A stretch of DNA of 49,008 nucleotides from assembly GCA_028875125.1 (NCBI GenBank), contig JAPPGC010000040.1, forward strand, positions 1 to 49,008. Reading direction: 5' to 3'. Under the pieces are notes generated by a model. That model worked only from the letters and a program-made list of their open reading frames with translations, did not search any database and was not told where the DNA came from. This stretch comes from Bacteroidota bacterium (lineage in GTDB: Bacteria > Bacteroidota > Rhodothermia > Rhodothermales > Bin80). The position numbers were made by a program, and so were the translations under genes. Below, piece after piece: positions 14,519-46,519 of the stretch; the stretch's first letter is position 1; every line of letters starts with the position of its first letter.

Positions 14519-14606
14519 GGAGAGGTGGCCGAGTGGCTGAAGGCGCTCCCCTGCTAAGGGAGTATGGGTTAACAGCTCATCGTGGGTTCGAATCCCACCC
14601 TCTCCG
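14519..14606 (+). tRNA. tRNA-Ser (GCU)
   Basis: 88-nt tRNA with acceptor stem GGAGAGG / CCTCTCC, discriminator G, anticodon stem CTCCC/GGGAG around loop CTGCTAA (anticodon GCT) and T arm GTGGG-TTCGAAT-CCCAC. The long variable arm is the class II form expected of serine tRNA. CCA is not encoded. It reads AGC/AGU codons. Confidence 0.96.
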
Positions 14607-14656
14607 CTCTTGGTCGAACGATCGTTCGGCTTTCACGATGGCGTACATGGAATCCC

Positions 14657-14741
14657 GGAGGGGTGGCAGAGTGGTCGAATGCACTGGTCTTGAAAACCAG
14701 CGTACCGCAGGGTACCGGGGGTTCGAATCCCTCCCCCTCCG
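14657..14741 (+). tRNA. tRNA-Ser (UGA)
   Basis: 85-nt class II tRNA with acceptor stem GGAGGGG / CCCCTCC, discriminator G, anticodon stem CTGGT/ACCAG around loop CTTGAAA (anticodon TGA), and a long variable arm (CGTACCGCAGGGTACCG). CCA is not encoded. It lies 50 bases after the first serine tRNA and probably shares its transcript. Confidence 0.96.
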
Positions 14742-14850
14742 CATTGTCAGCTTATAGACTGAGCTAGCTCCGCAGACCTGTCCGGGCTCAGAGCGCTGCG
14801 CATGTAGATGCGTCCAGGTATCCTTGAAGAGTGTCCAACCGGGAAAGGAC

Positions 14851-43053: not shown

Positions 43054-43947
43054 ATGCATCTCTACTTGGACTTGTTGCGGCATGTAATAACGAACGGACG
43101 TGAGCGCAGTGATCGCACAGGAACGGGGACGGTCAGTGTTTTTGGATATCAGATGCGATTTCCTCTGAAGGAGGGATTTCCAATTTGTACAACTAAACGT
43201 GTTTGGTTTCGGGGGTTGGCGTGCGAACTGCTCTGGTTCTTGTCTGGTTCTACGAATATCAAGCCGCTGGTCGATCAGGGAATCTCAATCTGGACTGCAT
43301 GGCCACTGAAGCATTATCTCGAGCATCATCAGCTCCCGGTACCACCGTCGGACTCTGAGGAATGGTCAGCGCGCCTTAAAGAGTTTGAAGAATGCATCCG
43401 CAACGAAGAAGGTTTTGCCGAAAAATGGGGGGATTTGGGTCCTGTGTATGGCAAGCAGTGGCGGTCATTTTCCGGTGTAGACCAGATTGCATCGGTCATG
43501 AACTCCCTGCAACGAAGCCCTTGGAGTCGACGTCATATTGTGAACGCATGGAATGCAGGAGAAATAGATCGAATGGCACTTCCTCCCTGTCATATGTTCT
43601 TCCAGCTTTCTGTTGTCGATAACCGATTGTCCTGCCAGCTTTACATCAGATCGAACGATCTTTTTCTGGGTGCTCCCTTCAATATTGCTCAGTACGCGCT
43701 CTTAACCCACCTTATTGCAGAGCAGGCAGGCCTTGAACCAGGGGATTTGGTCTACACTATCGGAGATGCACATATTTACCTGAATCATCTTGATCAGGTA
43801 AGGCAGCAACTGACGCGGACGCCTTATCCACTGCCAACTTTGCATATCTTAGGGAAGCCGGCAACATTGTTTGATTATGAGTACGCTGACTTTGTGCTCA
43901 GGGACTATAAGTATCATCCGGCCATCAAAGCCCCTGTGGCTGTATAA
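43054..43947 (+). CDS. thyA: Thymidylate synthase
   Basis: 297 residues. Catalytic Cys179 is in [10 protein letters not shown], and the folate/dUMP pocket is [21 protein letters not shown]-terminal [20 protein letters not shown] and the C-terminal IKAPVAV match the family. It is longer than the 264 residues of E. coli because of an insertion around 85-120, as in lactobacillal enzymes. It methylates dUMP, producing dihydrofolate that the DHFR encoded 2 kb downstream recycles. It heads a tight + strand run. Confidence 0.95.
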
Positions 43948-43974
43948 TTTTGTAATAGCGAAAAATTGACCACG

Positions 43975-44973
43975 ATGAGTACGCCGAATCCTGAGAGTCA
44001 GCGGCATGCGTTACTTCGAGGTGTTTTTGAGGATAATCAAAAACTTGTTGGGCATACTGTCTCAAAACAGAGGAGGACAACAGTATGGTGGTCTATGGGT
44101 ATCTCACTCCTGGTCATTGTGATTGCCTTGATGGTCGGTAGTGTAGAAGAAGGTGGTAAGGCTGAACCGGTAAGCTCAGTTGAAATACTTACATCTCCTG
44201 ACCAACGCATACTTGCATCCCAGGATGAAATGGTTGCGTCCGAAAGCACAACAGACCTACCCTTATCCCATGTTTATGGTCTTGACGTGAGAACGATCGT
44301 ACTTGATCCGGGGCATGGAGGTCATGATCCCGGTGCTTCTGGACCGGTTGGCCTGAGCGAAAAAACCGTTACACTTGATGTTGCTTTGCGTCTCGAAAGG
44401 CGACTGAAGTCTCGAGGCTATAATGTGGTTCTCACACGACGAGAAGATGTTAGCGTTAGTCTGCGCCAACGGGTCGAGGATGCACGGGTTAATGAGGCAG
44501 ACCTGTTTGTGTCCATTCATGTTAATTCGATCCCAGTCGATTCACTGGCTTTTATTGAGACCTACTATTTCAGCCCGCGCGGAGATGCTCGCGCGGAGGA
44601 ATTGGCTTTTAGGGAGAATTTCAATGCTGGCTACAGTGTTGCCCAGTGGCAAAACAGTCTTGAGGAATTAGGGCAAACCGTACGAGATGAAGACAGTCGC
44701 CGATTGGCCACGCACATTCAGAATGCGATGATGTCAAATATGCGCAAAATTAATCCCGGCATTCATGATTGGGGGACGAGATCTGGGCCTTTTACGGTGC
44801 TCCTCAACGCGAAAGTGCCTGCTGTACTTGCTGAAATAACCGCGATTTCCATGCCGGAAGAAGAACAAAACCTGCTGGAAGATGCATACCGCGAGCAGTT
44901 GGCTATCGGTCTTGAATCCGGGATTATCTCGTATCTTTCCGCAATGGATAGTTCTGTAACAACGGCTGATTAG
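43975..44973 (+). CDS. N-acetylmuramoyl-L-alanine amidase (Amidase_3 / AmiC type)
   Basis: 332 residues from the ATG at 43975; a TTG at 43966 is the alternative. One membrane helix (WWSMGISLLVIVIALMVG) is followed by a linker and the zinc amidase. The zinc ligands are in DPGHGGHDPGASG, LSEKTVTLDVAL and FVSIHVNSIP, and the catalytic Glu in AVLAEITAISMP near the C-terminus. It cleaves the septal or lateral peptidoglycan stem. The actin-like gene begins five bases after its stop, suggesting the hydrolase and the filament protein are made together. Confidence 0.9.
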   Translation: MSTPNPESQRHALLRGVFEDNQKLVGHTVSKQRRTTVWWSMGISLLVIVIALMVGSVEEGGKAEPVSSVEILTSPDQRILASQDEMVASESTTDLPLSHVYGLDVRTIVLDPGHGGHDPGASGPVGLSEKTVTLDVALRLERRLKSRGYNVVLTRREDVSVSLRQRVEDARVNEADLFVSIHVNSIPVDSLAFIETYYFSPRGDARAEELAFRENFNAGYSVAQWQNSLEELGQTVRDEDSRRLATHIQNAMMSNMRKINPGIHDWGTRSGPFTVLLNAKVPAVLAEITAISMPEEEQNLLEDAYREQLAIGLESGIISYLSAMDSSVTTAD

Positions 44974-44978
44974 TTTTT

Positions 44979-46004
44979 ATGTCAAATCAATCTGAAACAT
45001 CAAATAATATTCTGCGCGTAGGTATTGATCTCGGAACTTCGCGAAGCGCCATTGCTGCGGATAATGGCAAGCGCAAGTGGATTCACAGTTATGTCGGCTG
45101 GCCCCGTGATTTTATCGCACGCAAGTTACTCAAGCGTGATGTGCTCGTTGGAACGGATGCCATTGAAAATCGGAATTCAGTCAACCTGGTTCGTCCTTTG
45201 GAGCACGGTGTAATCAGGGACGGAACGACTAGAGATGAAAAGGCTGTTCGTGAACTGATTCGGCATTTGATATCTCTGGCAGAACCAGAGGATGGACAGA
45301 AAATTTATGCTGCCGTTGGCGTGCCTGCAGAGGCCCTGCGGGTCAATAAGCTTGCAATACGCAATGCTGTAGGTGAATGGACAGACACCCTGATGCTGGT
45401 ATCGGAACCGTTCGCGGTGGCATATAGACTCGGTGCTCTCAATAACGCTTGTATAGTTGACATTGGCGCAGGTACAATTGATTTCTGCGTCATGCATGGT
45501 ACGATGCCGAGTGATGAGGATCAGCGCTCAGTGCGCACCGCCGGGGATCATGTAGATCAGCAGCTTTACGAGCTACTGTCAGAACGCTTCGTCAACACGC
45601 CCATAAGTGAGACCATGGTGCGTGAATTGAAGGAGAAGCACGCGTGTGTTTCCAGTGCGAGTGAACCCATTAAGGTCAAGTTGCCGATCGCGGGTAAATT
45701 TCAGTCGCAGGACATCACCCAGGAGGTTTGCCGGGCCTGTGATTCTTTGATACCAAGCATAGCAGAGACAATTATTGATCTACTGAGTACGTACGAACCG
45801 ATTCTTCAGGAGCGGATCCGTAACAGTATTTATTTAGCAGGTGGCGGAAGCCAAATTCGTGGCTTAGCAGAAGCCCTCTCTGCTGCTCTGGAGGAGTATG
45901 GGCATTTCACGATCACACCCATTGAAGATCCGCTGTTCAGTGGTGCCGAAGGGGCCCTGAGTCTGGCGGAAGACATGCCAGAGGAATATTGGGAAAACAT
46001 GTAA
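44979..46004 (+). CDS. MamK-like bacterial actin
   Basis: 341 residues with the actin/Hsp70 ATPase fold. Phosphate 1 is GIDLGTSRSAIA (15-26), phosphate 2 VDIGAGTIDFCVM (160-172), and the adenosine motif YLAGGGSQIRGLAEAL (285-300). The whole protein follows MamK of magnetotactic bacteria closely as I remember it: YVGWPRDFIARKLLKRDVLV, VSEPFAVAYRLGALNNACIV, and the ending LAEDMPEEYWENM. Glu143 and Asp161 fall where residues needed for MamK ATPase activity lie. It is shorter than DnaK and lacks a substrate domain; it is more like MamK than MreB. No magnetosome gene is nearby. A filament role with the neighbouring cell-wall amidase is an inference. Confidence 0.8.
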   Translation: MSNQSETSNNILRVGIDLGTSRSAIAADNGKRKWIHSYVGWPRDFIARKLLKRDVLVGTDAIENRNSVNLVRPLEHGVIRDGTTRDEKAVRELIRHLISLAEPEDGQKIYAAVGVPAEALRVNKLAIRNAVGEWTDTLMLVSEPFAVAYRLGALNNACIVDIGAGTIDFCVMHGTMPSDEDQRSVRTAGDHVDQQLYELLSERFVNTPISETMVRELKEKHACVSSASEPIKVKLPIAGKFQSQDITQEVCRACDSLIPSIAETIIDLLSTYEPILQERIRNSIYLAGGGSQIRGLAEALSAALEEYGHFTITPIEDPLFSGAEGALSLAEDMPEEYWENM

Positions 46005-46519
46005 CACGTCCCCTTGTGATCGTCATTGCCGCACTGGCACGCGAGAATCGCTGTATCGGTCGTAATCTGCGCCTCCCTTGGCATATCGCCGAAGATATGC
46101 GGCGTTTTAAGCGACTGACGAGTGGTTTCCCGATGATCATGGGACGCCTGACCTGTGAGGGGCTCGTGCGTGACTTTGGTGGGCCGCTGCCGAACAGGCG
46201 CATGCTTGTACTGACAAGCAACCCCAACGCAAAGATCCATCCATCCATTGAACCATTTGCTTCATTGCAAGCTGCGCTGGAGCATGTAGAATTTGCAGAT
46301 CAGGTATTTATTGCCGGTGGCGCCAGGGTTTATGAAGAGGGGATTCCAATAGCAGACCGGCTCGAGCTAACGCTCATTGATCGCTCCTATGAGGGAGACG
46401 CTTTCTTTCCGCCGTACGAGCACCTCATCGGGACCGAGTTTGCACTCGTAAAAGAACGTCCACATGAAGGATTCACCTTCGCCACATACGATAGGATCCG
46501 CCCCTCAAAGGTTCATTAA
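45989..46519 (+). CDS. folA: Dihydrofolate reductase
   Basis: About 176 residues. Motifs are VIAALARENRCIGRNLRLPW, the proton-donating Asp in HIAEDMRRFKRLTSG, IMGRLTCEG, and the NADPH loop FIAGGARVYEEG. No ATG is near the 5' end. A TTG at 45989 has GAGG just before it and overlaps the actin-like gene by 16 bases; a GTG at 46016 would begin the protein at VIVIAALA, the usual DHFR opening. It reduces the dihydrofolate made by ThyA. The coupling to the actin-like gene places it in the thyA run. Confidence 0.88.
   Translation: MGKHVTRPLVIVIAALARENRCIGRNLRLPWHIAEDMRRFKRLTSGFPMIMGRLTCEGLVRDFGGPLPNRRMLVLTSNPNAKIHPSIEPFASLQAALEHVEFADQVFIAGGARVYEEGIPIADRLELTLIDRSYEGDAFFPPYEHLIGTEFALVKERPHEGFTFATYDRIRPSKVH

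Follow-up and report, generated by a model that had tools for sequence, protein, structure and literature searches.

Organization of the amidase-actin locus

The window, by which we mean the whole stretch of 49,008 nucleotides analyzed here, comes from a 3.3-Mb Rhodothermales-like Bacteroidota MAG and carries a gene for a MamK-type actin directly downstream of one for a membrane-anchored amidase (Table 1). The two are separated by five bases, as in the original prediction, with the amidase stop codon at 44971-44973 and the actin ATG following. A TTG at 43966 is also open as an amidase start, and close relatives begin at the ATG listed. The pair lies between genes for thymidylate synthase (43054-43947) and dihydrofolate reductase (DHFR; 45989-46519), and this four-gene order is kept in nearly all of the genus genomes examined. 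The proposed overlap of the actin and DHFR genes is uncertain because it depends on a TTG start at 45989, which gives an overlap of 16 bases; a later DHFR start removes it. Two tandem tRNA-Ser genes, with anticodons GCT and TGA, are located elsewhere in the window (14519-14742).

Table 1. Features of the amidase and actin genes in the window
Feature	Coordinates	Strand	Basis or detail
Single-pass membrane N-acetylmuramoyl-L-alanine amidase, partner gene	43975..44973	+	ATG start at 43975
Amidase cytoplasmic tail motif QRHALLRGVFEDNQKLVG, predicted actin-docking helix	43999..44052	+	
Invariant Asn codon of the amidase tail	44035-44037	+	
Single transmembrane helix of the amidase, WSMGISLLVIVIALMVGSV	44089..44145	+	Hydropathy
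Amidase_3 catalytic domain, predicted periplasmic	44296..44928	+	Pfam
MamK-type actin, 341 aa	44979..46004	+	ORF, NCBIfam/PDB matches, alignment, tree
Actin E143 codon	45405-45407	+	
Actin D161 codon	45459-45461	+	
Actin YW end	45987-45992	+	

The amidase is the sole Amidase_3 protein of the window genome (Pfam, 1.8e-44) and has the makings of an active member of that family, with residues H122, E136, H189, and E294 (L078 numbering), which we take to be the Zn ligands and the catalytic Glu, present in the window protein and invariant in all 43 aligned amidases. The Amidase_3 fold and catalytic residues are shared with AmiA/B/C, which are activated by EnvC/NlpD; the latter are secreted and often contain an AMIN domain, whereas the actin-paired amidases are anchored by a transmembrane helix and have a conserved cytoplasmic tail.

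A MamK-type actin apart from the magnetosomal clades

The actin matches MamK along its full length, scoring 396.3 bits with the NCBIfam MamK model (NF040964), just below the cut-off of 400; three other members of its clade that were tested score 377 to 411 bits, and the magnetosomal members tested score 469 to 528. The nearest solved structure is MamK of AMB-1 (5ljw; E 8.5e-75, spanning residues 7 to 340), followed by BeeR (1.9e-44) and then MreB (6.9e-13), and about 10 residues precede the fold. Pfam reports MreB_Mbl (4e-23), and the NCBIfam models for BeeR (NF053558; 200.5 bits, cut-off 530), MreB (83.5 bits, cut-off 293), and DnaK (15 bits, cut-off 822.55) score far lower than their thresholds. 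The claims of a full-length likeness to MamK and of only remote similarity to MreB and DnaK are thus borne out, and the search for a better match to a chaperone-type ASKHA protein gave only the 15 bits to DnaK; these scores place the protein outside the MreB and DnaK/HSP70-type ASKHA families, with the tree agreeing for MreB. The gene occurs throughout the genus (all 10 genomes) and across many families of the order, and 20 relatives with 60 to 96% identity have no internal stops. The predicted ATPase residues E143 and D161 are present and invariant in a 21-row alignment, making ATP-dependent polymerization likely, and the protein ends in EEYWENM, containing the predicted YW and an invariant W338.

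A tree of 101 sequences, with SH-aLRT supports from a quick search, separates the MamK superfamily from the MreB outgroup (support 100) and delineates clades within the superfamily without fixing their order. The window protein is within the superfamily, grouping with MamK and BeeR against MreB in agreement with its nearest structures, and is a member of an amidase-linked clade (SH-aLRT 98) that includes sequences from Bacteroidota, Nitrospirota, Desulfobacterota, Acidobacteriota, and others; L100, a contig-edge sequence titled Planctomycetota or 'bacterium,' also falls inside it. The other clades are those of Planctomycetota (95), the Nitrospirota magnetosomal proteins (100), and an alphaproteobacterial type that includes AMB-1 (98), with BeeR forming a long separate branch; the data neither demonstrate nor reject a common origin of all magnetosomal MamKs (AU p 0.41). 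Because the tree sets the amidase-linked clade apart from both magnetosomal clades, the window protein is a MamK-type actin but not a magnetosomal MamK, and it belongs to a clade of its own rather than being the stray MamK that the original prediction implied. No magnetosome genes were found around it, the neighbors being thymidylate synthase, the amidase, DHFR, and a glycosyltransferase; absence from the window genome as a whole was tested weakly, with one query and no positive control. A true MreB is encoded elsewhere in the same genome (425.9 bits), and replacement of MreB by this actin is therefore rejected.

MamK-like actins outside magnetosomes are already known in BeeR (PMC11929497) and Bbp (PMC10580974), both without known function. 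BeeR of Verrucomicrobiota (8r2n) is likewise a MamK-related actin of nonmagnetotactic bacteria, but the window protein is not a BeeR, as it lacks the N-terminal extension of 30 to 50 aa, scores far below the BeeR cut-off, and is off the long BeeR branch. Bbp, the 'big bacteria protein' of "Ca. Electrothrix gigas" and others, is a MamK-like actin additional to MreB and without magnetosomes, a likeness drawn from its published description rather than its sequence; its operon contains a second gene of unknown function, and no amidase is mentioned (PMC10580974). Relative to MamK of AMB-1 (5ljv/5ljw), the window actin has the same fold, catalytic residues, C-terminal YW, and an adaptor gene next door, but its partner is a membrane amidase and not MamJ.

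Amidase pairing and the cytoplasmic tail

The amidase-actin pair recurs across phyla. A scan of genome contigs recovered more than 430 relatives of the actin, and the best 80 are (by submitters' names) from Bacteroidota, Nitrospirota, Desulfobacterota, Acidobacteriota, Gammaproteobacteria, Gemmatimonadota, Planctomycetota, and several candidate groups. Adjacency was scored in 101 loci, which include a few genomes taken twice as well as related genomes, and in 93 of these a same-strand amidase homologous to that in the window is directly upstream of the actin gene. The eight others comprise five Planctomycetota loci in which another gene is upstream, two loci cut off at contig edges, and an archaeal MAG; in the amidase-linked clade, every locus with enough upstream DNA has a single-pass membrane Amidase_3 gene in this position. 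The arrangement is thus a widespread gene pair of several phyla and not, as had been implied, peculiar to one lineage.

Co-occurrence is strict in Nitrospirota, where 24 of 295 genomes code for a first-tier actin (50 to 55% identity) and exactly the same 24 code for a tailed amidase, the two being adjacent and on one strand in every case. These 24 amidases are full-length profile matches (384 to 433 bits, from model position 1 to 11), and none of the other Nitrospirota amidase matches listed starts before profile position 36 or scores more than 305.5 bits. These counts include related genomes, and relatedness lowers the effective number of Nitrospirota events, yet the pattern recurs across phyla; chance adjacency is rejected by the 93 of 101 loci and the 24 Nitrospirota pairs.

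Each paired amidase consists of a short tail at the N terminus, a single transmembrane helix, and the Amidase_3 domain. The tail contains a motif, [ILM]-L-[RK]-x-[VA]-[YFV]-x-[ED]-N-[LV] (also written [IL]-L-x-x-V-[YFV]-x-[ED]-N-[LV]), about 20 to 30 residues before the membrane, and is likely to be oriented toward the inside of the cell because of its positively charged flank and the periplasmic location of the substrate. The motif Asn is present in all 43 aligned amidases and is one of 31 invariant columns, the Zn ligands and the catalytic Glu being among the others. No such tail was found on unlinked Amidase_3 proteins, whether in 12 genomes representing other groups or in the window genome's own relatives, nor on the single transmembrane-anchored Amidase_3 of G012, a genome of the same family without the actin; the tail is therefore not a generic Amidase_3 feature.

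Structure prediction is consistent with contact between the tail and the actin. In one amidase-actin pair (L078), the two genes share a reading frame and are separated by just one TGA, so that a tethered chain could be modeled with this TGA read as Gly, a purely artificial device. In AlphaFold2 models built with the same amidase rows, the pLDDT of the tail (by 10-residue block) rises from 83/79/56 for the amidase alone to 91/93/71 when tethered, with the tail helix spanning residues 2 to 20, and there is no rise in the transmembrane segment or linker. As judged by pLDDT alone, in a tethered model with a pTM of 0.65, this suggests that the tail contacts actin, and part of the rise could come from context alone. 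The actin half superimposes on the MamK filament structure 5ljv with a TM-score of 0.96.

A probable role in wall cleavage and wider occurrence of the motif

The pair quite probably constitutes a two-gene wall-remodeling module. The MamK-type actin would polymerize in the cytoplasm and its filament would bind the helical tail at the N terminus of the partner amidase, with the periplasmic amidase domain being clustered, positioned, or activated as a result; stem peptides would then be cut from peptidoglycan at places or times set from inside the cell, the most likely occasion being septum splitting and daughter separation. Positioning of wall hydrolysis, one of two roles originally proposed for the filament, is now the favored one because the conserved cytoplasmic tail tracks the actin, and actins of this kind probably steer the site of wall cutting, since the short inner tail of the amidase looks made for gripping a filament. 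The scheme works like the MreB-RodZ/MreC elongasome, in which an actin filament is coupled via membrane proteins to periplasmic wall enzymes, but MreB belongs to a different clade and is separately present here.

In model bacteria, the main role of Amidase_3 enzymes is in daughter cell separation, and SPOR domains bind septal glycan denuded by amidases. A response-regulator receiver-TM-SPOR protein is encoded by the third gene, after amidase and actin, at ten Nitrospirota loci (L040, L041, L042, L043, L048, L051, L059, L061, L064, and L065), a neighbor limited to that phylum; this gene and the sole Amidase_3 of the window genome make division the likelier setting. An alternative is that the same physical coupling serves side-wall elongation or control of cell shape, because the window genome also has MreB, with which this actin could share the lateral wall. 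The association of Bbp actins with large cells (PMC10580974) is in keeping with this, and most of the case for division comes from the biology of amidases and from the SPOR gene of Nitrospirota, but with those points and the lone Amidase_3 against it we consider elongation unlikely.

The motif is also present on other proteins adjoining MamK-superfamily genes. Upstream of the Planctomycetota actins is a coiled-coil protein with the amidase-tail motif at its C terminus (e.g., AKHEMLKNIFEANLALRA), and no Amidase_3 was found in the genomes tested, two of Planctomycetota and one archaeal. Second-tier Nitrospirota MamK matches (40 to 46% identity) are mostly in magnetosome clusters, called by eye from neighboring MamA-, MamB/M-, MamE-, and MamQ-like genes. 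Here mamK is immediately preceded by a gene (L149 to L158, L161, and L162) for a protein of about 170 aa, with no convincing Pfam family, that also has the motif at its C terminus (e.g., SKKSFLKSIVMENVELRS), making it a candidate MamK adaptor. With a position matrix trained on the amidase tails alone and a background of 609 neighbor genes, 19 of 30 Planctomycetota partners surpass the 1% level of the background, and among the 12 Nitrospirota magnetosome loci that have the mamK-upstream gene, it scores best of its locus in 11. Another MamK-like actin gene has upstream of it one for a CheW-domain protein (L160:6161-6877) that ends in the motif (RKKAILSELIKDNLLIKRSRKKR) and scores 25.6, above all background, which hints that a MamK-type filament may be connected with chemotaxis.

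Since the motif-bearing proteins of Planctomycetota and of the Nitrospirota magnetosome clusters have no recognized enzyme domain, the motif appears to work independently of amidase activity, and the amidase could serve chiefly to nucleate, or to anchor at the membrane, an actin whose task is to position something other than the amidase, with the amidase catalytic domain as a sensor or passenger. We regard this as improbable, because the 43 of 43 invariance of the Zn ligands and catalytic Glu indicates selection on the amidase as an enzyme, and it is the only Amidase_3 in the window genome; nothing was found to support the positioning of another organelle, the second role originally proposed. 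Least probable is that the genes are simply coregulated in an operon and that the tail aids membrane insertion without direct contact with actin, for although the complex is inferred and short positively charged N-terminal tails are normal in single-pass proteins, an invariant Asn is unnecessary for insertion, the Asn motif is absent from the anchored amidase of the actin-less G012, and the motif both co-occurs with actin in all 24 Nitrospirota cases and recurs on other neighbors of MamK-superfamily genes.

Beyond filament-guided wall cleavage, we give an even chance to a broader proposition: that the motif serves generally as a short docking element for filaments of the MamK superfamily, on membrane amidases in most phyla, on the Planctomycetota coiled-coil proteins, on the Nitrospirota mamK-adjacent protein of magnetosome clusters, and on the CheW-like protein. 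In that case, the filament of magnetosomes would represent a single branch of a more ancient actin-adaptor system, with cell wall cleavage as its commonest client, and the mamK-upstream protein would be the MamJ equivalent of deep-branching magnetotactic bacteria. N29, R72, P236, and D332 separate the motif-bearing clades from MamJ-type MamK, and are too few to place a docking site. Adaptors of MamK outside magnetospirilla have been suggested to exist but to have been overlooked (PMC10653835), and the proposed system, if true, provides concrete candidates in Nitrospirota magnetotactic bacteria, places magnetosomal MamK within a larger family, and offers in a defined short motif a testable route from a cytoplasmic filament to control of an amidase. 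Bacterial actins with known clients are few, and the list would grow by a widespread actin with direct coupling to a wall hydrolase; a search of openly accessible journal papers found none joining MamK-type actins to an amidase.

Strong matches to MamK-like actins are present in 31 of 194 genomes of the archaeal phylum Thermoplasmatota, most with two copies (L254 to L272), for which no clear motif-bearing partner was found. About 40 of 398 Pseudomonadota genomes code for one to four MamK-like proteins, typically with a MamJ-like gene upstream and a MamF-like gene downstream (L195 to L223). MamJ is unsupported as a bearer of the motif, these alphaproteobacterial-type MamJ-like genes scoring at background with the exception of L211; L223 has the sole high matrix score among MamJ-like genes but is without the Asn. 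At L211, the MamJ-like gene is replaced by one for a 112-aa protein that ends in the amidase-tail motif.
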